Origin: Steromphala cineraria
Taxonomy: Eukaryota > Mollusca > Gastropoda > Trochida > Trochidae
DNA length: 64,000 nt
Assembly (NCBI GenBank): GCA_916613615.1
Contig: OU744720.1
Coordinates: 76,659,338-76,723,337 of the forward strand
Direction: 5' to 3'
The first letter of the stretch is position 1, and each line of letters begins with the position of its first letter. Positions 1 through 47,731 of this stretch are shown here, piece after piece. A program made the position numbers and the translations under genes. The notes below the pieces were generated by a model that had not been told where the DNA came from, searched no databases, and was given only the letters and a program-made list of their open reading frames with translations.

Positions 1-3000
1 GCAAAGATGAGCATAAGAACTTGTAATAGATCAGGATGAATATATATGTCCTGTTCCCCAGTGGTCAATACCTTTGTCTAAAATTCATTTTTTTTTTTAA
101 AAACGATATTAACATGGGATTCCGAAATAGATGTTTCAATGCTTGAACAGATGTTTATAAACTGTTCAGTGTTTATAACATTTTCAATTTTACATCAATG
201 GATGATTCAGTTATAATTATGTTATCATAAGCTTTATACACCCCCGTTACGAAGAAATCGGGGGTATATAGCAGTTATTCTGTCCTTTCGTCCAGGTACA
301 TATCTCGAAAACCGTTAGAGGTGGATCAATCAAACTTTGTGCAGGTGTTTGTGGATTGTCCTCATGTTGCAATTAATCAAGTTTTTTTCATATTTCTTTA
401 TGTAGCATAACAGTATCATTTCAAAAACAAGACGCGTTGGTTAATCACGTTTTATCCATTCTAAATAGCAATATGCCTTTATAATGTTGTAGATACCTTT
501 TGTACACGATACAACTCCAACGTGTATATATTAAGGAGAGGGAGAGGATTTAAGTTATGATAACTTGTCCATGAATTTATTCTTTGTGAATAAAATATGT
601 TTAAATTCAATTATGAATCCTCACCTTTGCCATTAAGAACACGATCATTGGTTCATTATAAACACAAATCATTGAACTATTCGACCCTTTAAATCCGTTG
701 CATCGGGAAGATGAATGTAATGTATATGATACACGTAAACGACTTACATTAACTTTGACCAAATAACATAATGTATATATGATAATATAGATTAGATCAG
801 ATATACCGACGAACGTTTTTCCGAAGAATTATTGTGTAAGTATTAAATTATTATGATCACAAGAGTTATTACATTGAGACAAAATAATGTTTACTTTCAT
901 AATTAATTGATGTATTTTGTTATGACAGAATTAATTATTATCTTTTCAATGAAGATGACCAAGTCGTTTGCAACCATTAGATTGTAGCAATTCATTTATG
1001 TGATGATTTTACGAGTATGTACATTTCATGCCCATTTTAAAACAGAGAAAAGTGGTCCCTGAATGGTTTGGTTGGAAAATGCATGCTCGCACTTGCACTA
1101 ACATGTGAATGGTCTGTGGCGTAAATTTACCAAAGAAAAACATGAACATTTATATTAAAGTGATTAATCCAAATTGCTATATATTTGCTTATCAGAACGT
1201 TTAAACCTATGTGCATTACGGTGGGATTTTCTCAACTACTCTTTTGTTTTATTAACACATTATATTACTTTACTGTTATAAGAAAGTTATATCAAAGTTA
1301 ATCAAATGTATTGATCCTAATAAAATAAAAGTACAATTTATTTTATATTTTATATATACTTTTTATCTTAATCTTATTGTTTAGACATAACATATTGAAG
1401 TTTACTTCAAAATTCTACAAATTTGCTAACCAGATTAAGGTGTGGCTTTGGTTCATTTGATTTGGTTCGCGAATTGATTATATTAAAGTATATATATGTT
1501 ATGCCTCGAAAACAATACTAAATATGAACACTGTTATGTCCCATCTTGAAATCCATTCCATTTTGAAATGGGACGAGTGACAGCCATTCCAACTTGCAAT
1601 TGCAAGATAGAATGTCCCATCTTGAACATATTGAGTATATTTAGGTTTGAGGAAAACTGTGTTGGAAACTGTATACATGGCAAATCGCTTTAATCTACAT
1701 CTATATAGATTTCATCGATCTTATTCTAAGAAGGCAAGCTAGTAAACCCTGCTTAGTCAGGTCTAATTTCATAAAAAGTAAAGGTTACAATGCAAGTTGA
1801 AGTTACAGTTAAAGTGTGTGTGGGAAATATACATTGCACTGATTGCAGTAATCCTTTCACATAAAGTAATCTTTCAGTACGGTACAAACGTACTTTATAT
1901 ATGCAGTTTGCTATTTTAATATCTTACATATACATTACATAATACATTAGGTATCTAGGTTTGAGGAAAACTGTTTGAAAAAATATACTAAAAGACTAAA
2001 AAGCATGATTCGTGCCACGTGCGCTATAATTCTAATAAAATTCACGTATGAAGTAGTGGTTTTAGTGATTTTAATGTATCCTGTATATATTGCCTTAACT
2101 TAAACACTTAAAGGAATATACATTTTGACTTTGGAAAATTTGACTCCCTGTCATGATATAAACTGACACCTCCGAACAGGATGGAATATTAATATGAACA
2201 TATGTTCAAAATTTCAAGTAGATCGGAGCTATAGTTTAGGAGATATGCCGAATTACGAATGATGATGATTTGCACTAGAGATAGCGTGGCGCGCGCCATT
2301 CGAACCTCGTTTTTCCGTTTTAAAATTCAACCTTTGCTTTAAATACTCTGCAAAAGCTACAATTGATTTACTGAGACGAGTACATAATTGTGATATTTAA
2401 ATTTGACATTTTTTTAATGTGACGTTATATGAACGTTCAGGGCAAAATGTAATTCCTTTAAAACAATAACTTAAAAAATTCTATTAAAGAGAATAGTGAT
2501 GTTTAATGAAAAAAAACATGTGTCTGCTATTTTCGAATTTCAAGTTAACGGAACTACATTTTAGCGGAAGAAAATGGTTTCTTAATCATAATTATTCAAA
2601 ATACTTCTGGAAATTTATATCATTCTTGAAAATAATAGTTGATTTAAGTAGATAATAATTAGTTCAAGATGGGACATTCTATCTTGCAATTGCAAGTTGG
2701 AATGGCTGTCACTCGTCCCATTTCAAAATGGAATGGATTTCAAGATGGGACATAACAGTGTTCATATTTAGTATTGTTTTCGAGGCATAACATATATATA
2801 CTTTAATATAATCAATTCGCGAACCAAATCAAATGAACCAAAGCCACACCTTAATCTGGTTAGCAAATTTGTAGAATTTTGAAGTAAACTTCAATATGTT
2901 ATGTCTAAACAATAAGATTAAGATAAAAAGTATATATAAAATAAAAAATAAATTGTACTTTTATTTTATTAGGATCAATACATTTGATTAACTTTGATAT

Positions 3001-4288
3001 AACTTTCTTATAACAGTAAAGTAATATAATGTGTTAATAAAACAAAAGAGTAGTTGAGAAAATCCCACCGTAATGCACATAGGTTTAAACGTTCTGATAA
3101 GCAAATATATAGCAATTTGGATTAATCACTTTAATATAAATGTTCATGTTTTTCTTTGGTAAATTTACGCCACAGACCATTCACATGTTAGTGCAAGTGC
3201 GAGCATGCATTTTCCAACCAAACCATTCAGGGACCACTTTTCTCTGTTTTAAAATGGGCATGAAATGTACATACTCGTAAAATCATCACATAAATGAATT
3301 GCTACAATCTAATGGTTGCAAACGACTTGGTCATCTTCATTGAAAAGATAATAATTAATTCTGTCATAACAAAATACATCAATTAATTATGAAAGTAAAC
3401 ATTATTTTGTCTCAATGTAATAACTCTTGTGATCATAATAATTTAATACTTACACAATAATTCTTCGGAAAAACGTTCGTCGGTATATCTGATCTAATCT
3501 ATATTATCATATATACATTATGTTATTTGGTCAAAGTTAATGTAAGTCGTTTACGTGTATCATATACATTACATTCATCTTCCCGATGCAACGGATTTAA
3601 AGGGTCGAATAGTTCAATGATTTGTGTTTATAATGAACCAATGATCGTGTTCTTAATGGCAAAGGTGAGGATTCATAATTGAATTTAAACATATTTTATT
3701 CACAAAGAATAAATTCATGGACAAGTTATCATAACTTAAATCATCTCCCTCTCCTTAATATATACACGTTGGAGTTGTATCGTGTACAAAAGGTATCTAC
3801 AACATTATAAAGGCATATTGCTATTTAGAATGGATAAAACGTGATTAACCAACGCGTCTTGTTTTTGAAATGATACTGTTATGCTACATAAAGAAATATG
3901 AAAAAAACTTGATTAATTGCAACATGAGGACAATCCACAAACACCTGCACAAAGTTTGATTGATCCACCTCTAACGGTTTTCGAGATATGTACCTGGACG
4001 AAAGGACAGAATAACTGCTATATACCCCCGATTTCTTCGTAACGGGGGTGTATAAAGCTTATGATAACATAATTATAACTGAATCATCCATTGATGTAAA
4101 ATTGAAAATGTTATAAACACTGAACAGTTTATAAACATCTGTTCAAGCATTGAAACATCTATTTCGGAATCCCATGTTAATATCGTTTTTCAAAAAAAAA
4201 ATGAATTTTAGACAAAGGTATTGACCACTGGGGAACAGGACATATATATTCATCCTGATCTATTACAAGTTCTTATGCTCATCTTTGC
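1..4288. repeat. Giant inverted repeat, 1.63-kb arms
   Basis: Bases 1-1626 are the reverse complement of 2663-4288, with only a handful of differences seen by eye (a short A/T-run difference near 85-105, one base near 555, one near 1350). The two arms have the same length. Base 1 of the window pairs with base 4288, so the left arm may continue outside the window. Each arm contains its own small palindromes, for example around 240-265 (CCCCCGTTA/ATCGGGGG) and at 1538-1574. No coding sequence was recognised in either arm. It could be a foldback transposon, a recent inverted duplication or a palindromic assembly artefact; the sequence alone cannot separate these. Confidence 0.95.
1627..2662. other. 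Spacer of the giant inverted repeat
   Basis: About 1.04 kb of AT-rich unique sequence between the arms. A short direct repeat (TAGGTTTGAGGAAAACTGT) occurs near 1643 and again near 1956. No open frame or domain was recognised. Confidence 0.6.
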
Positions 4289-5040: not shown

Positions 5041-5835
5041 TTCATTTTGAATCTGAATGTTGAAAAAAAAATCAACATTCAGATTCGAATGTGAATGTGA
5101 AATTTAATTTCAGATTCAGATTCAGATTCGCGAATGTTGGATTTCTCGCACATTCATCGGGAGACAGTGTTTTTAGCAGGGTATTACGCGTTAGTCAAAC
5201 TAATGCCCGGAGGCAGTCCGAGTCCGAATCTGAATGTGGAAATAAATTCCTGATTCAACATTCGTTCATATATGTAGAGTCTATAAGATATGATTTGAAA
5301 GCCCAAATTGAAAAAACTCAAGATTCATTTTGAATGTGAATGTTGAAAAAAAATCAACATTCAGATTCGAATGTGAATGTGAAATTTAATTTCAGATTCA
5401 GATTCGCGAATATTGAGTCTATAAGATATGATTTAAAAGCCCAAATTGAAAAAACTCAAGATTTATTTTGAATGTGAATGTTGAAAAAAAATCAACATTC
5501 AGATTCGAATGTGAATGTGAAATTTAATTTCAGATTCAGATTCGCGAATATTGAGTCTATAAGATATGATTTGAAAGCCCAATTGAAAAAACTCAAGATT
5601 CATTTTGAATGTGAATGTTGAAAAAAAATCAACATTCAGATTCGAATGTGAATGTGAAATTTAATTTCAGATTCAGATTAGCGAATATTGAGTCTATAAG
5701 ATATGATTTGAAAGCCCAAATTGAAAAAACTCAAGATTCATTTTGAATGTGAATGTTGAAAAAAAATCAACATTCAGATTCGAATGTGAATGTGAAATTT
5801 AATTTCAGATTCAGATTAGCGAATGTTGATTTTTG
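5041..5835. repeat. Tandem satellite, 138-bp unit
   Basis: A block beginning TCAACATTCAGATTCGAATG recurs at 5354, 5492, 5629 and 5767, a period of 137-138 bp. A diverged earlier unit lies at 5072, separated by an extra stretch. Each unit contains a self-complementary core around an A-run (AATGTTGA...TCAACATT). Short open frames here simply follow the repeat. Confidence 0.9.
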
Positions 5836-5948: not shown

Positions 5949-7000
5949 CATTCTGGATAAGTTGTCTGACATCGGGACTAATCTGGATAGGTTGTGACTT
6001 GCTCCCTTCTTTCATCTTGTACCAGCCCTGGAAGCTGTAGTCCTCTCCTGGAGTAGGGCACTGGAGAGATACCGAGTCTGTCTCCTTCACATTCACAATG
6101 TGTTCTTCTATTCCTGCAATATTTCATTTTATCGTCTGATTTAAAATGTTCTAGACATCATTTTAAACTTTAAAAATTTCTTAAATTTACTTATTTAAAG
6201 TGACAGTTGCACGTGTATTGAAAGTTTTTTTCCCAATGGTTTGCTACTTTACATTAGTTTATGCAACATGTATTGTCTTCAGAGGATAAAACAAGAAATG
6301 CATTATCAAGTATTAAGCAAACACTACTGTCTACTGTCAATTTTGTGTGAACAACTTTTGTTTATTTGATGTTTGAAAAGAGATTCGGGTAACTAAATTG
6401 AAAATCATACGTTTGTTTTGCAACTGCATCCTTTGATTCAAAACATTGTCTTCCAAATGGTAATGTTATTTCGTTTTCGTAAGATATTTTTCACCTTAAC
6501 TAAATGTGCAATTGTCACTTTATAAGAATAATCCAGTTAAAGGGTCATACTAAAGCACTACCCGGAATAAAAATAGGAATATGACCTTTGTTAAATCATT
6601 CATCTTTTGTGATAAATGTGTTTCATCTTTGCGATTAAGGTTCAATTAAACACTGATCGTTTTAATATGAACACCCCTGTTATGATATATTGCTATTATA
6701 ATCAATTTATTCTGGAGTGTAGGCAATAAAACGTTCAATCTTCTGCTTTTTGACAGAAGTTTGTTTTAAAAATATTAATCTGCATGTTTGAAATCAAGGC
6801 TATGAACCAGTTTTCTTAAAATTCATTTTTGTTTACATTTTTTCTTTTTACAAATAACTCTTTATGTAAGAAAAATAGATAATATTCAATTATTACCATT
6901 ATAATCATTTCATTATATATTCAACGTAAGATATAAACTTACCTTGGCACAGCACAATAAACAGCATAAGTCCGCATGAAACTTTAACTATAGAAATCAT
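5949..7000 (-). CDS. IgSF gene 1, 5' part only (signal peptide + half Ig domain)
   Basis: Two exons are seen. Exon 1 (7000 down to 6943) encodes MISIVKVSCGLMLFIVLCQ, a typical signal peptide, and ends in phase 1 at a GTAAGT donor. Exon 2 (6113 to 5949, 165 nt) starts after ATTGCAG in phase 1 and encodes the first half of an Ig domain, with the Cys in VSLQCPTPGE and the Trp in FQGWYK. It ends in phase 1 at a GTAATA donor. A partner exon carrying the second Cys (the DxGxYxC motif) was looked for between 1 and 5948 and not found. The rest may lie beyond the left edge, past the giant inverted repeat, or the gene may be broken. The plan matches the IgSF gene just upstream on the same strand. Confidence 0.72.
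6195..6525. mobile_element. Diverged TTAA-type MITE copy
   Basis: TTAA at 6195 is followed by AGTGACAGTTGCACGTGT. The inverse GTGCAATTGTCACTTTA lies near 6505-6522. Interior motifs (TTGTGTGAACA, ACATTGTCTTCCAAATGG) match the better copies elsewhere in the window. It sits in intron 1 of IgSF gene 1. Confidence 0.6.
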
Positions 7001-9779: not shown

Positions 9780-10617
9780 CTAAGCTTCGGATTCCGCTTG
9801 ATCCTCGACTTCTTCTCCTGGTCTTTCTGTATCAGCCCCGCTAGTATCCTCTTCTTCACCACCATTCTTCGTCTCCCTACCAAAACTGATATTGTTCTCG
9901 CTACTCCCAGCACTGACGACATTCATACCTGTGTCATCAGCACTCATATTGATGACCTTTGAGTCATCATCATCAAGATCGTTAACCTTCTCTTCAGTCT
10001 TCTTAGCGTGGTTCCTGTTTTCCTCCTTGCGCTTTTCAACCTCTTCATTCATTCTGCCGTTTTTGGTATTTTCGGGACTCTCCACATTGGTGTTCATCTC
10101 CTCTGTCTTCCCCATGTTAGTTTCCGTTCTCTTCGTTTCTTCCTGTCCTACCCATGTGGGATGATTTATCTTCTCAAGCACGCTCTTTCCACTGTTCTTA
10201 GCCTCCCCGTCGTTGGTCTTGTCGTCTTGTGACTTCTGTACGCACTTTAACTTCGCTTTTAACTCCTTGGCAACCCGTATTTCGTTCTTCTTTGTCTCTT
10301 CAAACTGATTTCCATCCTTTTCTGTTTCCTGCAGCAATCCATGGATATTTCCTTCCTCTTGCACGTTCGTATCGTCCTGAGACTCCTGAAACTCGATTCC
10401 ATGGTTTTCAGGTCTTGAGGGATCCCCATGACTCTTCGTCTCCATGGTGTTGCTAATCTCCGCCTCCTCCTTATGGACAATCTTGTATCCCTCCGCCTCC
10501 TCCTCATGGGCCATCCTGTATCCCTCCGCCACCTCCTCATGGACCATCCTGTATCCCTCCGCCTCCTTCCTCAGCATCTCCCGTCTCTTCCGCTTCCAGG
10601 AACACCATTTATGGCAA
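9780..10617 (-). CDS. Last exon of IgSF gene 2: cytoplasmic tail
   Basis: The acceptor CTCCTTCAG joins in phase 2 to the transmembrane exon; the stop is TAG at 9782-9780. The tail begins with Cys residues that could be palmitoylated and a basic cluster. Then come three tandem 11-residue units with tyrosine motifs (EGYRMVH, EGYRMAH, EGYKIVH). The rest is a low-complexity, mostly charged region ending in an acidic run (GEEVEDQAESEA). Composition suggests it is largely disordered. No SH2, TIR, death or kinase domain is visible. Confidence 0.88.
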
Positions 10618-13600
10618 CTGAAGGAGAACAATCTAGATAAGAGGGGGACACTCAATTTACAAAGTATATAATTTTGGCCTTTGAGACATATACTGAATTA
10701 GAGGGATAATAATTATAGGAACTTGTTAACATTAGCTGTCCAATATATTATCACCTGTCAATCATTTATGGATACCATCATGTGTTTATACCTTCAAGTT
10801 CAGACATTTTGCTTAAGAAAAAGAAGTATATTTACGTTTTGCCTAATTCTTTAACGAAACAGTGAAAAAAGATCGTTGAAATAGACATTCTTATACACTT
10901 ATACTCATATTGTCATTTCCGCTTTAAAAACAGATGTAAATTTTAGGCAAACTGCATATAAATCATTCAATGGTCCATATTTTAAATCATTCATAATTAT
11001 TATACAGTATAACAAATACAGTTATTTCGCGTCTTGTATTTGAGGCTCGTAGCAAAGGTTGTCCCCACTTCAAGTAAACTTTATTTTTTATGACATTTCA
11101 TTGTAGTTTATTTTACAGATCTACCAACAGAATGGCAGTGATTAGTTTGATGTAAATACCAAATGCCACTAGACAAAGTGTTTTAAAACATTGAATATAA
11201 GTACAACAAAGGAATTTACAACTATCATGAACTATCAAAAAGTTCATCTCTTCTAGTTCCAGAAGCTCATATATTTAATGATTTGAAGTTAGTAGCTTCT
11301 TCCCGTTCCTTTACAAGGGATCCGGGTAATATGATTACTGACACACTGTTAAACAGTTTGCTTACATATACATGTATATTCTTTTTGTTCCATATGTTGA
11401 TCTTAAGGGGAAAAAACTTGCAGGGTAGAAGGAAATGGTAGAAAGATGAGAGCCTTTCTTTAAAACCTGTTATTGCCTTTTTGGAAACGAGTATAATGTT
11501 TGTCCTTCATTGGGTAGGCCCTGTCATTTTGCATAAGAATATTAATGATAGCATGAACAATCAAAAACAACTCGAATTCGTAACATATCCGCGTGTTGAC
11601 ATATCTTTTTTATGAGCCAAGTTAAGTTTGTTCTATGTTTTGTTTTCTTCTGATTTGATATCGATTAAAATGATAACGAACAATGATAACCATTCATAGA
11701 AAGATATATACCAGTCGGGGGATCACAAACTTCTTGACAATGCGTATAGAGATACAGCATAGAGATAAAGTATAAAGATACACTATATACATGTATAGAG
11801 ATACAGTATAGAGATGCAGTATAGAGATGCAGTATAGAGATACAGTATAGAGATTAAGTATAGAGATACACTATAGAGATACACTATAGAGATACACTAT
11901 AGAGATACAGTATAGAGATGCAGTATAGAGATACAGTATAGAGATAAAGTATAGAGAAACACTATAGAGATACACTATAGGGATGCAGTATAGAGATGCA
12001 GTATAGAGATGCAGTAAAGAGATGCAGTATAAAGATACAGTATAGAGATACAGTATAGAGATACAATATAGAGATACACTATAGAGATACACTATAGAGA
12101 TACAGTATAGAGACACAGTATAGAGATGCAGTATAGAGATACAGTATAGAGATACAGTATAGAGAAACACTATAGAGATACACTATAGGGATGCAGTATA
12201 GAGATGCAGTATAGAGATGCAGTATAGAGATGCAGTATAGAGATACAGTATAGAGATTAAGTATAGAGATACACTATAGAGATACACTATAGAGATACAC
12301 TATAGAGATACAGTATAGAGATGCAGTATAGAGATGCAGTATAGAGATACAGTATAGAGATAAAGTATAGAGAAACACTATAGAGATACACTATAGAGAT
12401 GCAGTATAGAGATGCAGTATAGAGATGCAGTATAGAGATGCAGTATAGAGATACAGTATAGAGATACAGTATAGAGATACACTATAGAGAAACACTATAG
12501 AGATGCAGTATAGAGATGCAGTATAGAGATACAGTATAGAGATACAGTATAGAGATACACTATAGAGAAACACTATAGAGATACACTATAGAGATACAGT
12601 ATAGAGATGCAGTATAGAGATGCAGTATCGAGATGCAGTATAGAGATGCAGTATAGAGATACAGTATAGAGATACAGTATAGAGATACACTATAGAGATA
12701 CAGTATAGAGATACAGTATAGAGATGCAGTATAGAGATGCAGTATAGAGATAAAGTATAGAGATACAGTATAGAGATGCAGTATAAAGATACAGTATAGA
12801 GATACAGTATAGAGATACAGTATAGAGATGCAGTATAAAGATACAGTATAGAGATGCAGTATAGAGATGCAGTATAGAGATAAAGTATAGAGATACACTA
12901 TAGAGATACACTATAGAGATGCAGTATAGAGATGCAGTATAGAGATGCAGTATAGAGATGCAGTATAGAGATACAGTATAGAGATACAGTATAGAGATAC
13001 ACTATAGAGATACACTATAGAGATACAGTATAGAGATACAGTATAGAGATACACTATAGAGATACACTATAGAGATACAGTATAGAGATACACTATAGAG
13101 ATACAGTATAGAGACACAGTATAGAGATGCAGTATAGAGATACAGTATAGAGATACACTATAGAGATACACTATAGAGATACACTATAGAGATAAAGTAT
13201 AAAGATACAGTATAGAGATGCAGTATAGAGATACAGTATAGAGATGCAGTATAGAGATGCAGTATAGAGATGCAGTATAGAGATACAGTATAGAGATGCA
13301 GTATAGAGATGCAGTATAGAGATACAGTATAGAGATGCAGTATAGAGATGCAGTATAGAGATACAGTATAGAGATAAAGTATAGAGATACAGTATAGAGA
13401 TGCAGTATAAAGATACAGTATAGAGATGCAGTATAGAGATACAGTATAGAGATGCAGTATAGAGATGCAGTATAGAGATGCAGTATAGAGATACAGTATA
13501 GAGATGCAGTATAGAGATACAGTATAGAGATGCAGTATAGAGATGCAGTATAGAGATGCAGTATAGAGATACAGTATAGAGATGCAGTATAGAGATGCAG

Positions 13601-16600
13601 TATAGAGATACAGTATAGAGATACAGTATAGAGATGCAGTATAGAGATGCAGTATAAAGATACAGTATAGAGATACAGTATAGAGATACAGTATAGAGAT
13701 GCAGTATAAAGATGCAGTATAGAGATACAGTATAGAGATACAGTATAAAGATGCAGTATAGAGATACAGTATAGAGATACAGTATAGAGATAAAGTATAG
13801 AGATACAGTATAGAGATAAAGTATAGAGATACACTATAGAGATACAGTATAGAGATGCAGTATAGAGATACAATAAAGAGATGCAGTATAGGGATGCAGT
13901 ATAGAGATACAGAAAAGAGATACAGTATAAAGATACAGTATAGAGATACAGTATAGAGATACAGTATAGAGATGCAGTATAGAGATAAAGTATAGAGATA
14001 CAGTATAGAGATGCAGTATAGAGATACAGTATAGAGATACAGTATAGAGATACACTATAGAGATACACTATAGAGATACACTAAAGAGATACACTATAGA
14101 GAGACACTATAGAGATACAGTATAGAGATACAGTATAGAGATGTAGTATAGAGATGCAGTATAGAGATGCAGTATAGAGATACAGTATAGATATGCAGTA
14201 TAGAGATGCAGTATAGAGATGCAGTATAAAGATGCAGTACAGAGATGCAGTAAAGAGATACAGTATAGAGATGCAGTATAGAGATGCAGTATAGAGATGC
14301 AGTATAGAGATGCAGTAAGAGATGCAGTATAGAGATGCAGTATAGAGATGCAGTATAGAGATGCAGTATAAAGATGCAGTATAAAGATTCAGTACAGAGA
14401 TTCAGTACAGAGATGCAGTATAGAGATGCAGTATAGAGATGCAGTATAGAGATGCAGTATAGAGATGCAGTAAAGAGATGCAGTATAGAGATGCAGTATA
14501 GAGATGCAGTATAAAGATGCAGTACAGAGATGCAGTATAGAGATACAGTATAGAGATACACTATAGAGATACACTCTATAGATAAAGTATAAAGATACAG
14601 TATAGAGATACACTATAGAGATACAGTATAGAGATACAGTAAAGAGATGCAGTATAGAGATGCAGTATAGAGATGCAGTATAGAGATACAGTAAAGAGAT
14701 GCAGTATAGAGATGCAGTATAGAGATGCAGTATAAAGATGCAGTACAGAGATGCAGTATAGAGATACACTATAGAGATACACTATAGAGATACAGTATAG
14801 AGATACAGTATAAAGATACACTATAGAGATACAGTATAGAGATACACTATAGAGATGCACTATAGAGATAAAGTATAAAGATACAGTATAGAGATACAGT
14901 ATAGAGATACAGTATAGAGATACAGTATAGAGATGCAGTATAGAGATGCAGTATAGAGATACAGTAAAGAGATGCAGTATAGAGATGCAGTATAGAGATG
15001 CAGTATAAAGATGCAGTACAGAGATGCAGTATAAAGATACAGTAGAAAGGTACAGTATAGAGATACAGTATAGTATAATGAGTTTCAACAATAGTGTTAC
15101 CAATAATTATCATCTATTTCTATACTGTATATTATGTTTAAAATGGGGGTTAGGTTCAGTTGTGGTTAATAAAATGTTTTGCGAGAGATGAAAGTATTTT
15201 GAGCATTTTTCACATGTACATAATCCATGGCATAATTATGCCAACGTCTATGAAGAAGAAAAGGCTTACCATCGACCTATGGCTAAAGCTGAGATGAGAG
15301 CGACGAGTCCTAATCCAGACCAGATCCATCTCAGCAACATTTCCTTGTTGTCTGCCATTGTGAGGAGATCACATAATCATTGATAAAATAAGCGTATCAT
15401 CCAAACATAACACAGATTTTGCATCGTACTAAAGGTGTCATTATAAGGGAGAAAGTCATTGACTATTAACTTGCTCTCATGCTAAAAACAGTTCTTTAAC
15501 TGAATTTAAAGGTTTGAATATATATTTTAATAATTGTGAATATCAAAAACATGTTTCGTGTTCTCTTGTCATTCATTACTACATAAGATGCAACGTCTTC
15601 TGTTATCTTGATAAATTTAGATCAACAGGTTTAACATTAGGCCATACTGTCGATCTAAGATTGACCAGTGTAGGCGGGTCGTCCCGCTGAACTCTGAAAT
15701 GGGCCAATCAGACTAGATGCTCTATCTCGCTGGAAGCTCAACTACTCAGCCGCGCTATTGGTTGGTGTATGGAGTATTTTCATTCGGGGCGGAGCAGAGC
15801 GACCATTTCGCGTATAATCCGATTGCTTGGATGTATTAACAGATTATATTTTTTTAATTTTCAAATGCTTGTTGCTAATTGTCAATGACAAATTATGATT
15901 GCAAATCGCACAGATACAGATACACAGATAAGGGGCGAATAATATTCACAAAATGAGAGCTTGAAAAATTTAAATATTATTTGTATGTGATTAATCAATT
16001 TGCGATTTCCTTATTTGCGCATTAAAGGTCATCGGGACGACCTTTCACACTGGTCAATATAAGACCAACGGCATGACCTAATGTAAAACCTGTTGATTTA
16101 AAGATATTTAGATTGTGTCTTCTGATAACTCAGATATTCAGGATTCTGTTAATTAAATTCAAAAGTTTTCGCCTACGATTAGAGTATTACTTACCAAACA
16201 AGTTTATGTTCTGTTTGTCTTGGCCAGCGCCATTCGTCCCCATACAGGTGTAGGAAGCAGTATGAGGGATGATATAAGACAGGTTCAAGTGACTTTTCAT
16301 ACCATTTGTCTGTACGCCTGTCGTAATCATCTTACCCTCGCTCCACCATGTGATGTTTGGCACTGGTCTGATAAAATAATTTATTTTGAACAACAAAACC
16401 CGAAAGGCATAACTATCACAATCTCATTTACGCTAATTTCACATATGCTGCATTGCGTCAATTTTTCTTTGCCAGCTCCTAACACTCATTTAACTTGAAT
16501 ACCATTTCAGGAAGATCCTGGCGGTTACTTCTTCAACTTATTTTCATAGAATGCAGCAAGGCTTAGGCCAGCTTGTTGTTAAGACGGGCGCGACATGTGC

Positions 16601-19600
16601 TTTGTGGAGGACAGTTTGTATCAACCAAATAGTGAAATATCAATTCAAATTGCAATATTGCAAAATTTTATTTTTGTGAAATAATAGATGTAATGTGATG
16701 AAACTTAACTACAACTGCTTTATTCCTAACCAAATGTTACCACATGATTATAGAAGCTGGCTTTACAATGTCCATTTAGAAAATTTTCTATTTCCATGAA
16801 ATCATACTAATTATAAAGAAAACTATTAATCCCCACTCAAGAGACAAGACATCACTATTGCATACCTGAGATTATCACACCGAATCAAAAAGATTGACAC
16901 TTGCTTTTATATCAAGATATCGGCAACTAAGAAACTGATAAGGACATCGTTCTTTGTATTACATCAGCTTACCTTCCTGCAAAAACACAGACAAGTTCCT
17001 GGGGGTACAGACTCGACTGAGTCATATTGGGACTGCTCCACAGTAACTTTGGTTCTCTATGAGTGGAACCTGAAACATGATATTTAATAATAATTCATGA
17101 ATAATAACCACGAAGATCACCGTGGCAATTTACATTTAACGTTAATAAAATACTTCATTTTAATAATTTTCAGTTTGATACAAATGTAATTTGTATCAGT
17201 CGGTATTGGTCATTTGAATGATTCAACGCCACTTAAAGACATGATTCAACACCACTTGAAGACATGATTCAACACCACTTAAAGACATGATTCAACACCA
17301 CTTAAAGACATGATTCAACACCACATAAAGGCATGATTAACTGTTTAATAACGTATACCATAGCAATCGCCTTACCCCTAGTAACATTGAGAGTAATGTT
17401 ACTTCCAAAGGAAATGCTATCCTGGTCCGAAGAAGAACATCCGTAAACGCCTGTATCCCCGGGAAGTACATAGGAGAAGAACAGGGTGCCTGGGAAAGTT
17501 ATACTATTTAAGGGGCATATTGATTGAAACAAGTACATGTATTCTTGGAATCTTTGACTGTCAACGAATGTTTTCATCAACGAAGTTTTACATGAGTCAA
17601 TATTTTTTTCTAAAAGCAGTATGCCTAAGAATAAGCTTCTCTCTCTACAGACCTAGACGTAGTCCGAGACATTGAATTTTATGTCGGCCACTATCCGAAA
17701 AAGAGACTTTCTATTGCCAACGGCAGATTTAATTAGCGATAATGATGCCATGATGTATGAAATAATGATGCCATGATGTATGAAATAATGATGCCATGAT
17801 GTATTAAATAATTATGCCATGATGTATTAAATAATTATGCCATGATGTATGAAATAATGATGCCATGATGTATGAAATAATTATGGCATGATGTATGAAA
17901 TAGTGATGTAATGGTGAATTAAATAATGATGCCATGGTGTATTAAAAAATTATGCCATGATGTATGAAATAATGATACCATGATGTTAGAAATCATGATG
18001 CCATGATGTATGAAATAATGATGCAATGATGTATGAAATATTGATGCCATGATGTATGAAATATTAATGCCATGATGTATGAAATAATGATGCCATGATA
18101 TATGAAATAATGATGCCATGATGTATGAAATAATGATGCCATGATGTATTAAATAATGATGCCATGATGTATGAAATAATGATGCCATGATGTATGAAAT
18201 AATTATGGCATGATGTATGAAATAGTGATGTAATGGTGAATTAAATAATGATGCCATGGTGTATTAAAAAATTATGCCATGATGTATGAAATAATGATAC
18301 CATGATGTTTGAAATCATGATGCCATGATGTATGAAATAATGATGCAATGATGTATGAAATATTGATGCCATGATGTATGAAATATTAATGCCATGATGT
18401 ATGAAATAATGATGCCATGATATATGAAATAATGATGCCATGATGTATGAAATAATGATGCCATGATGTATGAAATAATGATGCCATGATGTATGAAATA
18501 ATGATGGCATGATGTATGAAATATTGATGCCATGATGTATGAAATAATTATGGCATGATGTATGAAATAATGATGCCATGATGTATGAAATATTGATGCC
18601 ATGATGTATGAAATAATGATACCATGATGTATGAAATAATGATACCATGATGTATGAAATAATGATGCCATGATGTATGAAATATTGATTCCATGATGTA
18701 TGAAATAATTATGGCATGATGTATGAAATAATGATGCCTTGATGTATGAAATAATTAGGCCATGATGTATGAAATAATGATTCCATGATGTATGAAATAA
18801 TTATGGCATGATGTATGAAATAATGATGCCATGATGTATGAAATAATGATGCCATGATGTATGAAATATTGATGCCATGATGTATGAAATAATTATGGCA
18901 TGATGTATGAAATAATGATGCCATGATGTATGAAATATTGATGCCATGATGTATGAAATAATGATGCCATGATGTATGAAATAATGATGCCATGATGTAT
19001 GAACTATTGATTCCATGATGTATGAAATAATTATGGCATGATGTATGAAATAATGATGCCTTGATGTATGAAATAATTAGGCCATGATGTATGAAATAAT
19101 GATACCATGATGTATGAAATAATTAGGCCATGATGTATGAAATAATGATACCATGATGTATGAAATAATGATGCCATGATGTATGAAATATTGATGCCAT
19201 GATGTATGAAATAATGATGCCATGATGTATGAAAAAATGATGCCATGATATATGAAATAATGATACCATGATGTTTGAAATCATGATGCCATGATGTATG
19301 AAATAATGATACCATGATGTATGAAATATTGATTCCATGATATATGAAATAATTATGGCATGATGTATGAAATAATGATGCCTTGATGTATGAAATAATT
19401 ATGCCATGATGTATGAAATAATGATACCATGATGTATGAAATAATGATACCATGATGTATGAAATAATGATGCCATGATGTATGAAAAAAATTATGCCAT
19501 GATGTATGAAATAATTATGGCATTATGTATGAAATAATGATGCCATGATGTATTAAAAAAAGATGCCATGATGTATGAAATAATGATACCATGATGTTTG

Positions 19601-22506
19601 AAATCATGATGCCATGATGTATGAAATAATTATGCCATAATGTATGGAAAAATGATGCCATGATGTATTAAACAAAGATGCCATGATGTATGAAATAATT
19701 AGGCCATGATGTATGAAATAATTAGGCCATGATGTATTAAATAATGATGCCATGATGTATGAAATAATGATGCCATGATGTATGAAATATTGATGCCATG
19801 ATGTATGAAATATTGATTCCATGATGTATGAAATAATTATGGCATGATGTATGAAATAATTATGCCTTGATGTATGAAATAATTAGGCCATGATGTATGA
19901 AATAATGATACCATGATGTATGAAATAATTAGGCCATGATGTATGAAATAATGATACCATGATGTATGAAATAATGATGCCATGATGTATGAAATATTGA
20001 TGCCATGATGTATGAAATAATGATGCCATGATGTATGAAAAAATGATGCCATGATGTATGAAATAATGATACCATGATGTTTGAAATCATGATGCCATGA
20101 TGTATGAAATAATGATACCATGATGTATGAAATATTGATTCCATGATGTATGAAATAATTATGGCATGATGTATGAAATAATGATGCCTTGATGTATGAA
20201 ATAATGGTGCCATGATGTATGAAATAATGATACCATGATGTATGAAATAATGATACCATGATGTATGAAATAATGATGCCATGATGTATGAAAAAATGAT
20301 GCCATGATGTATGAAATAATTATGGCATGATGTATGAAATAATGATACCATGATGTATGAAATAATGATACCATGATGTATGAAATAATGATGCCATGAT
20401 GTATGAAAAAATGATGCCATGATGTATGAAATAATTATGGCATGATGTATGAAATAATGATGCCAGGATGTATTAAAAAAAGATGCCATGATGTATAAAA
20501 TAATGATACCATGATGTTTGAAATCATGATGCCATGATGTATGAAATAATGATGCCATGATGTATGAAAAAATGATGCCATGATGTATTAAAAAAAGATG
20601 CCATGATGTATGAAATGATTAGGCCATGATGTATGAAATAATTAGGCCATGATGTATTAAATAATGATGCCATGATGTATGAAATAATGATGCCATGATG
20701 TATGAAATATTGATGCCATGATGTATGAAATATTGATGCCATGATGCATGAAATAATTATGGCATGATGTATGAAATAATGATGCCATGATGTATGAAAT
20801 ATTGATGCCATGATGTATGAAATATTGATGCCATGATGTATGAAATAATTATGGCATGATGTATGAAATAATGATGCCATGATGTATGAAATATTGATGC
20901 CATGATGTATGAAATATTGATGCCATCATGTATGAAATAATGATGCCATGATGTATGAAATATTGATGCCATGATGTATGAAATAATGATGCCATGATGT
21001 ATGAAATAATGATGTCATGATGTATGAAATATTGATGCAATGATGTATGAAATAATGATGCCATGGTGTATGAAATATTGATGCTATGATGTATTAAATA
21101 ATTGTGCAATGATGTATGAAATAATGATGCCATGATGTATGAAATATTGATGCCATGATGTATGAAATAATGATACCATGATGTATGAACAATTATGATT
21201 CTGCCACCTCCCCAACATTTTTTTACAACACATGTCCTTGAAATAGTTTCAGTTTAGATTGCTTGAAAAACATAGAAGACTCACCCAAAGCGTTAACACA
21301 CAATCGATCCTCATTACCGAGCTGTTGTGGAAATGAGAATGAGGTATTCTTTCTATACCAGTTTAGAACTCTTGGTTTATGCGGGATCACGTGACACAGG
21401 AAGCACACAGGATCACTCTCCAGTACTGCCACTTCCGGGTCTTCGCAATCCATTCCTTGAACATATGTTGTATCTCATGTTAGAAATTACAAACACTTAA
21501 CCGTGTAACATCATTCAAAATTAAAGGCCAATCAAACGCTCTGAATGTTCTTGTCAAACTCCATCTGGATGAGAGCATTAAAGCCAACATAAGAGAAAAG
21601 TAACACTGATAAAGAATATCTAAAAGATCAAACGTGCACAAAAGCATCATCTTTGAATATCTAGAGGCTTTTGGTGAAGGCAGTTATCTGAAGGTTTACC
21701 AACTAAGTTCATTTAATTACAGAAGTGTTTATGTTAAAGTCACGAGAGCTTCTCATTATCAACCCGATTATTCGTCGTAGTATTCTTATATTATCAACTT
21801 TTAAACGAAATCTGCAAGCGGCCATTACAGTATGAGCACCTATCATCATTTAAGATGAGGAAATGTAGTTAAAACGCAAAAGTTCTCTTAAACTCCGCCA
21901 CTTTTGATTAAAACATCGTCTTGTAATTGATACAGTTTCGATTCCCTACTTTACCATTGATAACGAAGAGTCAATCTCTGATAATAACAAATATGAAGGA
22001 GTTATGTTAATTGTAATTCTTATTTGTAAATGTAGTTACCCTGCTACAGAATACACATGATCAGACGGAACATAGTCATCATTTGTATAAGCTAAAAGAA
22101 AAATTACTTGCAATACAGAGAGCTTTATGAAGCCTATATCTGCGTACTTCCGGCTACCCCCATAAAGTGACTCTAGAACGCTGTCACTAATGTTTGAAAA
22201 TCAGTTAGCAGAACACATATTTTCTAATAAAGCCAAATCGAAAGAACTATCTCCTTCTTTCACTTTGGCTATCTCTTTAATGTGAGATTCGATAAGAAAT
22301 GGGTATGTCAGCTATCCAAAAAAACAAATACTTAGAACCAGATTTGAAGTACCATAGGAAAACAGTTTTAAAAAACTTTAAACAGTTTTAACATTTCAGA
22401 TTATCGGATTTGTGAATTTCTAATAATGAAAATAAAAAGACTTACCATTACATAGAAGGACCTCCAAAGATACAACGTATACCAGATACAGCTGAAGAGG
22501 CAACAT
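9780..22506 (-). CDS. IgSF gene 2: two-Ig transmembrane receptor with long charged tail
   Basis: Seven exons, in minus-strand order: 22506-22446 (signal peptide MLPLQLYLVYVVSLEVLLCN), 21455-21285, 17489-17376, 17069-16973, 16367-16195, 15351-15270 and 10617-9780. All introns are GT-AG and phases agree (1,1,1,2,1,2). Coding length is 1536 nt, giving 511 aa. Ig1 (about 21-115): Cys in VCFLCHVI, Trp in VLNWYRK, DTGVYGC. Ig2 (about 116-205): LVCVFAG, ITWWSEG, and HTASYTC, where the usual Asp is His. The transmembrane helix (about 210-228, LRWIWSGLGLVALISALAI) follows Ig2 almost without a stalk. Next come Cys-Cys and a basic stop-transfer stretch (CHKWCSWKRKRR), then a 280-residue Glu/Lys/Asn-rich tail. 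It is probably a single-pass surface receptor or adhesion protein; the ligand is unknown. Introns 2 and 6 hold giant minisatellites. A weak polyadenylation signal (ATTAAA) may lie at 9541-9536. Confidence 0.88.
10462..10560 (-). repeat. In-frame 33-bp coding repeat, three units
   Basis: Units at 10462-10494, 10495-10527 and 10528-10560 begin GCCTCCTCC or GCCACCTCC on the plus strand, and a partial fourth follows. Since 33 is a multiple of 3, copy-number change would add or remove whole tyrosine-motif units in the receptor tail without shifting the frame. Confidence 0.9.
10618..11740. other. Intron 6 of IgSF gene 2, unique part
   Basis: About 1.1 kb of AT-rich intron between the cytoplasmic-tail exon and the 13-bp minisatellite. 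No exon or mobile element was recognised. Confidence 0.6.
11741..15077. repeat. 13-bp minisatellite, about 3.3 kb, in intron 6 of IgSF gene 2
   Basis: Uninterrupted array of ATACAGTATAGAG and one- or two-base variants (ATGCAGTATAGAG, ATACACTATAGAG, ATAAAGTATAGAG), roughly 250 copies. Because 13 is not a multiple of 3, three units (39 bp) encode a 13-residue period (LYTVSLYCISILH) and all three minus-strand frames stay open for long distances. Those frames are by-products of the repeat. There are no unique spacers, so this is not a CRISPR array. Confidence 0.97.
15613..16110. mobile_element. MITE-like element with about 75-bp inverted ends
   Basis: The left arm (about 15613-15686: AGATCAACAGGTTTAACATT ... 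GACCAGTGT ... GGTCGTCCC) is the diverged reverse complement of the right arm (about 16031-16110). The centre is unrelated and has no open frame. It lies in intron 5 of IgSF gene 2. A shortened relative forms the palindrome at 28276-28345. Confidence 0.75.
17217..17335. repeat. Short 23-bp tandem array in intron 3 of IgSF gene 2
   Basis: ATTCAACACCACTTAAAGAC-type units start at 17221, 17244, 17267, 17290 and 17313, an exact 23-bp period, with few substitutions. The sequence differs from the large 23-bp array 400 bp away. Confidence 0.9.
17737..21190. repeat. 23-bp minisatellite, about 3.45 kb, in intron 2 of IgSF gene 2
   Basis: Array of ATGATGCCATGATGTATGAA plus ATA and variants, about 150 copies. 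Higher-order structure is visible: a block with a GTGATGTAATGGTGAATTAA variant at about 17.88 kb returns 322 bp later (14 units). A longer block ending near 19453 returns about 806 bp later (35 units) near 20259. As 23 is not a multiple of 3, 69 bp encode a 23-residue period (SLFHTSWHHYFIHHGIIISY) and minus-strand frames stay open. No independent coding role is supported. Confidence 0.97.
21584..21740 (+). repeat. Diverged direct duplication, copy 1
   Basis: This stretch (ACATAAGAGAAAAG ... GGCTTTTGGTGAAGGCAGTT ... TTACAGAAGTGTTT) matches 23344-23500 along its length with scattered differences and small indels. Copy 1 lies in intron 1 of IgSF gene 2, copy 2 upstream of the gene. Confidence 0.7.
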
Positions 22507-29539: not shown

Positions 29540-31375
29540 TCAAATCAACCTCGGTTCTCTATTTTTGTGCCACTTCCACTTTTGTTTATCAGAACCATCA
29601 CATGACTGTTGCACAAGGACAGTCGATTCGCCGTCCACACTAATACAGAGTCCAGTTCGAACATTTCTGATAAACTGACCATCAAATGACCAGGCCTGCA
29701 TCCCTCTCTGACCATGACACTTCATCAACCTCAATTCTAAAGCATTATTACTGTCAAGACAATGGTCCAAGTTTCTCACTTCACTAAAATCTGACAGGTC
29801 CCATAGTTGGTTGCCTCCGTGGCCGTGACATTGGAAGATGGAGGGACTCTCATAGTCGGACCCCGTGTCCATACACCTGGAGGGGAAGAGGACGCTGCTG
29901 ATCTCTCCTGTGTACACCCCATCTCCACTGATGAACATTTCTGGGTGTACGTTATCAATGTACCATTTAAACTTCTTGCAATTCAATCCATCTCGTATCT
30001 TCCTTCGTTCAGACAAATCTCCCAAATGAACCTTTTCTCCATTCCAGTTGGTGATGAACACCTTGTATTCATCTAACCATACGTTAGCAACGCGCCCAAC
30101 GTTTCGGGGATAGATGTATGAAAAGTTTAGCTTCCCGTGATGGTAGTTTGCATGGGACCGATATACATGGCCGACATGAGAGCATGGAATGATCTCCATA
30201 CTCCCTCCGCATGTCCACACTTTAACAGATAGCTCGGAATTTTCTCCACCCCAAATCAGAAGTTCTGGATCATACTTGCCCAGCTTCTCAAACCAGTCTC
30301 TGTTCACTGTGAAGAGGCCACCCGCCATTCCTGGTGATCGGATGGGATCAGTTGGAGATTTTCGACGTTTCATCTCACGCTCTGGTGTGTAGATCCAGTC
30401 GAAGCCAAGACTTGGAAATTTCAACACTGCCACGTGTGTAGGTACAGTGCTTTGTATTTCAAAATTCTTCATGTCGATAATTTCAATCACAGGCATTGCA
30501 ACAATCTTAGGATCATAAGCAACTCTTTCTAGCAAGGGTTCCAGCCAGCGTTCAAAACACTCACAGTGACTGTCCAGAAAGGTAACAGTGGCAGCAGTGG
30601 CCGCATCAAACCCTATGATCCTCGCTTTCATCAGGCCTACCCTCTCAGGGGAACGTATAAGCTTCACTTTGGGATATCTAGATAGATACTTCTCCAAGGG
30701 TTTGCCAAGATAGTCTTTAGTTGAACAATCGTCCACAAGGATTACCTCCTTCAACAAACTGTCGGGTGTTTTATCCAACACACTGTGCATAGTACGGAGG
30801 AGAGTTGTCCATGTTTCGTTCATGAAGATGACGACGACGCTGGTCTGTGGTAGGCGAGTCACATCGTAGGTGATGTCTTCACATCCTTGTACTCGGATCC
30901 TTGGAGTACGTCTGTGAAGCGAAATGAGATTACTCACGTAGTTGTGGTATCCATTTGCCTTCTTACTCTCGTCATATTTGATACGCTCCTCATCAGGCAG
31001 ACGAGAGCTGTCTATATAAACGGGGGCGCCAAACTCGCCAGGGTTTGTAAGGTTGAAGAGCCCTTTTACTAAAGTTACATTTGGCATATCTGGCATGAAA
31101 ACTCGGAATGAATGTGGCTTCTCTTTATCCATTGTTTCTAAAATTTCTTCGGATAATTGTGAAGAAATTAGAATATAGAACAAAACGAAGATTGTGATTA
31201 AAGTGCAGCTGCTTCTGTAGAACTTTCGGTTGAAGCGACAGTATCTCTTGCACCTGAGCATCATGTCTGTCCTTGTGTATAATGAACTGCTGCAGCTATG
31301 ATTTGAATAACTACTAAAGTCAACAACGGGAGTGAACCTTTCAAACACATCTGCCATGCAGCAGGTGTTAATCAA
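29540..31375 (-). CDS. GALNT-like: Polypeptide N-acetylgalactosaminyltransferase (GT27), single exon
   Basis: Starts mucin-type O-glycosylation by moving GalNAc from UDP-GalNAc to Ser/Thr of proteins in the Golgi. The 611-codon frame shows a type II membrane protein: short cytosolic part, helix at about 57-71 (CTLITIFVLFYILIS), stem, then the GT-A domain. That domain has VVVIFMNETWTTLLRT, VILVDDCST (about 211-219), the metal-binding DSH (268-270, TFLDSHCECF), AGGLFTVNR, WGGENSELS and CSHVGHVYR. A C-terminal ricin-type lectin domain carries three QxW-like motifs (NQLWD, MQAWSF, KQKWKW). All catalytic landmarks are present. Met1, Met7 and Met38/39 could each start; Met38/39 gives a more usual N-terminus. 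It has no introns, unlike most animal GALNT genes, so it may descend from a retrocopy. Which GALNT subfamily it belongs to is not decided. Confidence 0.97.
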   Translation of the reverse strand: MINTCCMADVFERFTPVVDFSSYSNHSCSSSLYTRTDMMLRCKRYCRFNRKFYRSSCTLITIFVLFYILISSQLSEEILETMDKEKPHSFRVFMPDMPNVTLVKGLFNLTNPGEFGAPVYIDSSRLPDEERIKYDESKKANGYHNYVSNLISLHRRTPRIRVQGCEDITYDVTRLPQTSVVVIFMNETWTTLLRTMHSVLDKTPDSLLKEVILVDDCSTKDYLGKPLEKYLSRYPKVKLIRSPERVGLMKARIIGFDAATAATVTFLDSHCECFERWLEPLLERVAYDPKIVAMPVIEIIDMKNFEIQSTVPTHVAVLKFPSLGFDWIYTPEREMKRRKSPTDPIRSPGMAGGLFTVNRDWFEKLGKYDPELLIWGGENSELSVKVWTCGGSMEIIPCSHVGHVYRSHANYHHGKLNFSYIYPRNVGRVANVWLDEYKVFITNWNGEKVHLGDLSERRKIRDGLNCKKFKWYIDNVHPEMFISGDGVYTGEISSVLFPSRCMDTGSDYESPSIFQCHGHGGNQLWDLSDFSEVRNLDHCLDSNNALELRLMKCHGQRGMQAWSFDGQFIRNVRTGLCISVDGESTVLVQQSCDGSDKQKWKWHKNREPRLI

Positions 31376-32349
31376 TGCCAGGATTGATTTAATCTTTGAC
31401 TACTTTGTTAAAAATCTATTTGTTCAGCCTGTTTAACACAAGTGCTCGCTTAATAATCGTTTAGTCTTATTTACGTGTCAGTGGTAGCTTGATATATTGA
31501 GATTAGGTCTTGGAACAGAACGAATCTTGTATAGTCAATAATGACTTGAAATAGGACTCTCAATTACAAATTTATTTAGTATTATTTCGAAGTTAGATTG
31601 GCCTCAAGCAGGAAAGAGTATGTTGGAAAGGCCCAAATGAGTAGTGTCATGCCATGAACATTTGACTGTATAGCCTCAGACAACTACATTTAAGTAGAAA
31701 CATCTCTGAATAGGATACTGATATGAAATATGACATTTTGGTGAATTGATTGTCATTTCTGCATTGCTTTTGCATTGCATTTGTGATTTAGTGTTGGTAC
31801 AAAATATGAAATTATCAAATCATTCATTTGATTATAGTATCATGTTATAGTTATTTGTTACAAATATTTTTTAAATAGTCTTTTAATTCAATTGCTTCAA
31901 TTGATATCGGGATGAAGATCGAGACATGATCACCATTGTAAATGCAATGGAAATGTTACCGAGAGTCCCATATTACAGCCTTAAGAGGAAATGTATCAGA
32001 CCCTATGGTGCTCTGTCACACTAGACATGCCTTTTCACAACGTCTGCTCTGCGTTTTAAAAATAACTAAATTCGATCAAAACGCCCCCTTAACATGTTTA
32101 TCAAATTAACTACTTTATCAAACGCCGGACTTCAACCGGTCTGTAAGACGCACATGTAGGCATCAATCCAATTAAAAGCAGGAGTATATTCATGCTGTAC
32201 CGAATTATTTAAAACTGAGATTTTTTTGTTTTATTTTGACTTATTTCAACGAAATATAACCCGATACAAGATCTATTTTTATCCGGCCCTATATCAAGAC
32301 AGGCGGTTTTCTCAGTGACTCAAAACGTATAGTCGAGGCAGGCTTGTAT
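31376..32349. other. Upstream region of the GalNAc-transferase gene
   Basis: AT-rich, with no exon or repeat recognised. It should contain the promoter and 5' UTR; a 5' UTR intron cannot be ruled out. Confidence 0.4.
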
Positions 32350-35833: not shown

Positions 35834-36946
35834 AAATGATCGGTTACCTGCCAAAACGCAGAACTGTAAAACGCAGAACTGCTAAAACAACAACATTTAT
35901 GGTTGGTTGCACACACCTGAACCCTCATAATATAATGGAACGGCCCGATAGGAAATGAAATGAAGACAAAAATACAATTTGTTGTGTAAACATGTATTGT
36001 GCATGTTTTTTAATCATATGTTTCCATTGTTGGATTCTTTCATCATCTTGGATATTGATTATTTTACAATTTACAACATTGCTTATCATTGTTCATTGTT
36101 CAATCTGTGCTTTCATTCACATCTTCATCATCATGAGAGGTCCGACTGCATCCAGGAACTGCATTGGTGACTTCTCACCACGGCGAAGCTGATCTTTCAG
36201 ACGAGACAGGCGCTGCTCCTTCTCTTTGTAGATTGCTTTCTTGGGTGGTGGAGCAGCTCCAAAGTTGATCTGGATGACCTTCGCCTTCTCTCCGTTTTCA
36301 ATGTTCTTGATCAGTTCAATGAACCTGTGCAGTGGTTCATAGCATCGAGCCACGCATCCTGGACCTGGAGCAGGGGAAGCAGCGGGAGACCTGCAGCTCG
36401 GCGAACCCACTTCCTAACCTCAGCATCTTCCTTGTAGGCAACCGCAAGTCCTAGGTCTTGCGTCTTGCGCCATATTGCCTGACAGAAGTGGAAGAGGCAT
36501 CCCTTCAACGTGGCCTGAGGGAACACAGTCTCTGCAGCAACAATGCTGGCTTGCTCAAAGTCAGTCTGGATCACTGAAGGTGCGAGTGGTCTGTTGAGGG
36601 TCTGCTGCACGTGAGTCTTCAGTAAGTTGAACAGTCTGGTGTAGGTAGCTCTCGTGCGGTCTGGGAGTAAGGCGAAGACCAGTGGGTACATGGTCGATCC
36701 TGACATGGCATGTATGATGTACAACTGGTTCCAGAGAGCCGGACAGGAGGAGAAGGTGCCGTCCATGTAGATGTAGTCAGCAGACTGTTGAACATAATTT
36801 GACTGTGTCGCTCTACTCACTGTCAGAGTGGACCAGTCCATTACTTAATTGAATAGGTGTGACCAGCCTGACAATGAACTTTTCATTTCTGCTAATTGGG
36901 ATTCTGCGTTTTACAGTTCTGCGTTTTGGCAGGATACCAAATGATC
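35834..36946 (-). mobile_element. Deleted MULE transposon with TIRs and target-site duplication
   Basis: The left end (from 35842: GGTTACCTGCCAAAACGCAG ...) and right end (to 36938) are inverted copies over about 37 bp with few mismatches. AAATGATC flanks both sides (35834-35841 and 36939-36946), an 8-bp duplication, or 9 with one mismatch. The interior is a transposase fragment on the minus strand and about 230 bp of 3' non-coding sequence. At about 1.1 kb it is far shorter than an autonomous MULE: the whole N-terminal half is missing, so it is a deletion derivative. Confidence 0.88.
36117..36841 (-). pseudogene. Truncated, frameshifted MULE transposase
   Basis: The upstream frame (36841-36311) gives the MULE DDE core: an Asp in YIYMDGTFSSCP, the second Asp in VIQTDFEQA, and C-x2-H in GCLFHFCQAIW, followed by KWVRRAAGLPLLP and VQDAWLDAM. 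Near 36330 the frame shifts. The continuation (to 36117) reads FIELIKNIENGEKAKVIQI, then a Lys/Arg-rich end typical of the C-terminus. The N-terminal zinc-finger part and the third acidic residue region were not found. It should be inactive. Confidence 0.85.
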
Positions 36947-47400: not shown

Positions 47401-47696
47401 GGTTTTACCTGGATATTAGGCGCTATACAAATCAGCTGTCATTCTATATTTACTGCTTGACTTATCTTCATTACAGAGATGAGGTCAACAGCAGGTCCTC
47501 CGCCAATGAAAGAGATACAGGATATGGACCTCCTGCAGTGTGATGTATCTCCCCACTCGGTACCTCCTGCACAGGTGTTCTGGTTCAGGAATAAGAAACA
47601 GCTTGGTAGAGAGGCTGAACATTTGTACACTGACATCAACGGTATCGTGTTTATATCATCTTATATACTGCCACTACTGCTTCTACTATTACAACA

Positions 47697-47731
<35 letters not shown>

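Follow-up and report, generated by a model that had tools for sequence, protein, structure and literature searches.

A 33-bp in-frame coding minisatellite spaces three tyrosines in the tail of a predicted two-Ig receptor of Steromphala cineraria

The window, a 64,000-nucleotide stretch of the Steromphala cineraria genome, contains on its minus strand a predicted immunoglobulin (Ig) receptor gene whose last exon encodes three tyrosines at equal distances. The locus raises the question of whether this spacing marks a signalling motif of the ITAM type, as the initial annotation had suggested, or reflects the period of the DNA repeat in which the tyrosines lie.

A predicted small receptor with two Ig domains

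A splice model made from the sequence, with no transcript behind it, joins seven minus-strand exons into a stop-free reading frame of 511 residues. All six introns are bounded by GT-AG, with phases 1,1,1,2,1,2. Exon 1 (22446–22506) holds the start codon and a putative signal peptide (MLPLQLYLVYVVSLEVLLCN), a hydrophobic N-terminus judged by inspection, and its open frame ends at a GTAAGT donor in phase 1. The two halves of the first Ig domain are encoded by exons 2 (21285–21455) and 3 (17376–17489, including DTGVYGC) and those of the second by exons 4 (16973–17069) and 5 (16195–16367, including ASYTCMGTNGAG). Exon 6 (15270–15351) encodes the transmembrane helix (WIWSGLGLVALISALAIG), recognized by inspection as a hydrophobic segment bounded by Arg. 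Exon 7 (9780–10617) encodes the cytoplasmic tail, which is acidic, of low complexity and contains the three Tyr, and ends with the stop codon. None of 1500 shuffled frames (500 shuffles, three frames each) stayed open as long as the frame of exon 7.

Taken singly, the exons gave weak Pfam scores, and the spliced protein exceeded the cut-offs for Ig_3 (43.8 bits, cut-off 30, in two stretches) and I-set (39.7 bits, cut-off 23.7). By inspection, a single membrane span covers residues 214–231 and is followed by a basic stop-transfer stretch. The remaining 280 residues, from residue 232 onwards, form the acidic tail (net charge −26, counted over 277 residues). With a signal peptide, Ig domains above the curated cut-offs and one membrane span, the product has the features of a single-pass receptor of the immunoglobulin superfamily, and the gene is predicted to encode a small cell-surface receptor with two Ig domains.

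Three introns of the receptor gene contain minisatellites. TRF reported 256 copies of a 13-bp unit in intron 6 (11744–15073) and 150 copies of a 23-bp unit in intron 2 (17739–21189). A third array, of 5.3 copies of a 23-bp unit, lies in intron 3 (17218–17338).

The 33-bp repeat and its spaced tyrosines

A tandem repeat with a 33-bp period occupies positions 10458–10573 on the minus strand (TRF, 3.5 copies, 90% matches). It lies in frame in exon 7, which in the gene model directly follows the transmembrane exon. At a lag of 33, the self-match is 71 of 83 bases; the best value among dinucleotide shuffles of exon 7 at any lag from 12 to 60 was 47, and none of the 300 shuffles reached 71. The units stand head to tail and in frame within one exon, and their length is a multiple of three. 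The repeat thus qualifies as a genuine coding minisatellite, in frame in the receptor tail, as the initial annotation had proposed.

The three units read YRMVHEEVAEG (10521–10553), YRMAHEEEAEG (10488–10520) and YKIVHKEEAEI (10455–10487). Their Tyr codons start on the minus strand at 10553, 10520 and 10487 and encode Y255, Y266 and Y277; no other tyrosine occurs among the 280 residues beyond the membrane span. The peptide preceding unit 1, RREMLRKEAEG, has the end of the unit in common with it, and the peptide following unit 3, SNTMETKSHGD, is not unit-like. The tetrapeptides YRMV, YRMA and YKIV, with Val, Ala and Val at +3, can be read directly from the units; as originally described, each is separated from the next Tyr by seven residues, giving an exact Y-x10-Y spacing.

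In pairwise comparison the units differ at 2, 7 and 7 of 33 bases, and all changed codons are nonsynonymous. These counts give no sign of purifying selection on the unit, because about 81–83% of random single changes in the unit codons are expected to be nonsynonymous anyway; they are compatible with neutrality, and their small number leaves room for constraint. Among the 11 codons, five do not vary, the Tyr codon being one. Since every difference between units changes a residue and the Tyr codon shares its constancy with four others, nothing sets it apart.

The ITAM consensus, in the form given in the source consulted, is YxxL/I-x6-8-YxxL/I (PMC12058738). The tail contained no match to the strict consensus, the +3 residues being V, A and V; when L, I, V, M or A was allowed at +3, two overlapping matches appeared. 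The spacing between tetrapeptides, seven residues, falls twice within the range of six to eight. However, it is dictated by the 33-bp repeat period, and because the units duplicate one another, the second spacing is no observation independent of the first. The same caution applies more widely: any in-frame repeat of 10–12 codons that holds one YxxPhi motif will show ITAM spacing. The ITAM-like description is therefore upheld as far as the spacing goes, itself a by-product of the repeat period, and fails at the +3 residues; an ITAM in the tail is not supported.

Other tyrosine-based and sorting motifs were sought in the tail as well. An ITSM has Thr two residues before the Tyr. At that position an ITIM has S, I, V or L (PMC6851185); in the tail it is occupied by Glu in all three cases, and none of the three Tyr fits either motif. 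The tail contained no match to the YxN, YxxM, NPxY, TxYxx[VI] or dileucine patterns and one occurrence of PxxP.

The tail might nevertheless act as a degenerate ITAM, in which paired phosphorylation of the tyrosines would attract a tandem-SH2 kinase of the Syk type. In favour of this, the Y-x10-Y spacing is exact; a paracaspase dependent on Bcl10 is described as part of the molluscan inheritance, and homologues of Syk/Zap70 in invertebrates are said to occur only together with CARD-CC/Bcl10 (both in PMC5978004). An oyster receptor of the immunoglobulin superfamily with an ITAM, CgIgIT2, has also been reported in a review (PMC11999971). Against these points stand the Val or Ala at +3 in all three tetrapeptides, the absence of strict matches and the origin of the spacing in the repeat period, and we consider a degenerate ITAM decidedly improbable. 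Like the receptor described here, CgIgIT2 of Crassostrea gigas is a molluscan single-pass Ig receptor with a cytoplasmic Tyr motif. Compared by its description only, it differs in having five Ig domains and a motif that the review terms a classic ITAM (PMC11999971), whereas the present receptor has two Ig domains, V, A and V at +3, and Tyr residues that owe their number to a DNA repeat.

Relatives of the receptor and of its tail

The flanking DNA was examined by local search over 40 kb on each side of the window. A tandem paralogue lies immediately downstream of the receptor gene in the same orientation. Its exons 1 (signal peptide, 7000–6943) and 2 (Ig half, 6113–5949) fall within the window (5949–7000, minus strand), and the other five lie beyond the window start. 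The paralogue has seven exons encoding 275 residues, the same intron phases as the receptor (1,1,1,2,1,2) and two Ig stretches recognized by Pfam (Ig_3, 57.9 bits). In a two-sequence BLASTP alignment with the receptor, 67 of 215 columns were identical (31%, E 4e-21). The 39-residue tail of the paralogue contains no Tyr and no repeat.

The Tyr-free tail of the paralogue counts against a degenerate ITAM and equally against the sorting function considered below. Combined with the exclusively nonsynonymous differences between units, the lack of strict ITAM matches and the period-set spacing, it also leaves a selected signalling module unsupported, and the tyrosines do not appear to form a conserved one. 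Conservation, which the initial annotation had made a touchstone of its proposal, could be followed in one relative, and the absence of Tyr from the tail of this relative goes against the proposal; as this relative is a tandem paralogue at 31% identity and not an orthologue, the test is partial and would weigh little. The tandem pair, one member with and one without the repeat, offers a natural comparison for the role of the segment.

Several further elements lie in or near the paralogue. An inverted repeat (1–1632 and 2657–4288) inside one of its introns has arms of 1632 nt that are 100% complementary in the window and 1024 nt apart; it extends past the window start, where 782 of 793 further positions pair, and is either a palindrome of recent origin or an artefact of the assembly. 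A 138-bp tandem repeat with four copies (5277–5829) lies in a paralogue intron, and what by eye is the same unit recurs on the opposite strand, in 13 copies, in the adjacent flank (L002:7220–9013) within the same intron. Downstream of the paralogue, an open frame of 389 residues rich in basic-Ser motifs (window coordinates −19315 to −20481, minus strand) is probably a separate gene.

We searched the host assembly (1.27 Gb, 281 contigs) for other relatives. At the protein level (E ≤ 10) the tail exon matched only itself, with 27 candidates scored and limited sensitivity, and at the DNA level it likewise gave one match. The first 294 residues of the receptor gave 23 matches at E ≤ 10, of which seven were its own exons and 16 were weak (best E 0.003); this search missed the tandem paralogue, so distant family members may have escaped it, and the tail-exon search too. 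In a protein collection that includes molluscs, residues 1–290 yielded 1489 candidates, none at E ≤ 1, and residues 200–300 yielded 53, none at E ≤ 10; that search needs shared 5-residue words and so misses distant Ig relatives. By sequence, 512 distinct PDB sequences matched at E ≤ 1. The best 60 of the 512 were Ig-domain proteins, headed by the Netrin receptor DCC (E 1.3e-13), and so pointed to no specific relative.

One weak match to the repeat itself (receptor residues 250–286, E 8.3, two stops) came from another contig, C3. The matching locus (C3:87177215–87177925) is a 33-bp minisatellite filling the 711 bases examined (21.6 copies), which reads QESEGYVLHN* in one frame and is interrupted by stops in almost all units. 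Its unit, at the best rotation, is identical to the receptor unit at 19 of 33 bases; 12 of 5000 letter shuffles did as well. As the locus was selected by its match, this is no clean test, and we do not draw a line of descent between the two repeats.

Tail helix, sorting and repeat number

The reading we favour, and consider probable, is a copy-specific coding minisatellite that forms an acidic, helical juxtamembrane segment, its three tyrosines being copies of a duplicated unit. One Tyr-containing 11-residue unit would have been spread just inside the membrane when 33 bp rich in purines were duplicated in tandem and in frame. This would have happened in one of two small two-Ig receptors that stand in tandem, and the ITAM-like spacing would have arisen from the 33-bp period. 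The segment would serve as an acidic, helical stretch after the basic stop-transfer sequence. Counting against this reading, all tyrosines of the tail lie in the units, so they are its only possible phosphotyrosine sites.

A helix was predicted by AlphaFold2 for the exon 7 frame, run with no alignment (mean pLDDT 63.8, pTM 0.25). Residues 2–59 of the exon, a stretch with many Glu, form one helix in this single-sequence model, with block pLDDT values of 83–93 over residues 1–50; in the same numbering the repeat units are residues 22–54. The model also contains helices at 85–136 and 185–213 (block pLDDT up to 87), and the helix call is therefore not special to the repeat. As 11 residues make approximately three helical turns, each Tyr and its +3 residue would share one face. 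An amphipathic character of the helix was rejected as evidence: its value was reached by eight of 5000 composition shuffles, but by 1074 of 5000 when the periodicity was kept. A juxtamembrane helix in the cell is likely, although weakly supported by such a model.

An endocytic role for one or two of the tyrosines is the chief rival to the helix reading. Here YRMV and YKIV would be YxxPhi signals read by AP-2 mu2, and the repeat would supply more than one copy. Sorting signals of this kind had been offered as the alternative from the start, and the motif is indeed present at two of the three tyrosines, Y255 (YRMV) and Y277 (YKIV); YRMA does not fit. AP-2 binds the YxxPhi motif in extended form, whereas the repeat is helical in the model. 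The three tyrosines are 24, 35 and 46 residues from the membrane end (residue 231). Internalization signals of the YxxPhi type are described as usually lying 10–40 residues from the membrane (PMC4584282), a range that, of the two fitting tyrosines, includes Y255 (24 residues) and leaves out Y277 (46 residues). The motif is, moreover, short and easily met by chance. On balance, endocytic sorting by the repeat is unlikely, and a role for Y255 is possible on sequence grounds.

Repeat number might also vary between alleles and so tune the receptor. The array is in frame, so changes in copy number would keep the frame, and other, large minisatellites occupy introns of the receptor gene. However, the array has 3.5 copies, as read from one assembly, and any two of its units differ by 2 to 7 bases in 33, which suggests that it is fairly old and slow; a variable tail of this kind seems very improbable to us. 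Still less credible is a germ-line dial, in which the number of in-frame YxxV motifs carried by an allele would set how many sites for phosphorylation on Tyr or for sorting there are in a tail with no other Tyr, the sites being a new gain that followed duplication from a Tyr-free sister; we would be surprised to find it. Were the tyrosines functional and variable in number, the locus would show clearly how slippage of DNA can alter the signalling valency of an immune-type receptor.

Every element described here has a precedent, and finding them together would be important only once both a function and polymorphism had been demonstrated. The tails of arthropod Dscam, also an invertebrate Ig receptor, carry ITAM-like Tyr optionally, and as described there the variation comes from exon skipping (PMC6851185), whereas here, if any, it would come from DNA repeat number. 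The 48-bp VNTR in exon 3 of DRD4 is likewise a coding minisatellite that keeps the frame, situated in a receptor's cytoplasmic part that carries SH3-binding motifs; it differs in lying in a GPCR loop and in having known alleles, of which 2R, 4R and 7R are given as the commonest, with up to 11R (PMC3877354). Internal tandem duplications of FLT3 are described as in-frame duplications in a receptor juxtamembrane region as well. They are leukaemia mutations in a receptor kinase, whereas the present repeat belongs to a reference genome sequence and the Pfam matches of the receptor include no kinase domain. FLT3, too, has Ig domains. Among the open-access literature matches listed, none concerned this receptor gene or a Tyr-bearing coding minisatellite in a receptor.

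Other features of the window were recorded. An apparently single-exon gene for a polypeptide N-acetylgalactosaminyltransferase with a ricin-type lectin domain lies at 29543–31399 on the minus strand; its best match, among the best 120 of 1879, was from Haliotis asinina (61% identity over 83% of the query). This one gene of a multi-member family would place the host, most likely a gastropod, close to Haliotis but outside that genus. A fragment of a MULE-type transposase is found at 36314–36844 (minus strand). Exons of another Ig-domain gene lie on the plus strand at 47461–51624, with an ACT-rich array (47673–48134) after the first recognized exon, and a dense block of minisatellites with units of approximately 28–31 bp occupies 60011–61339.
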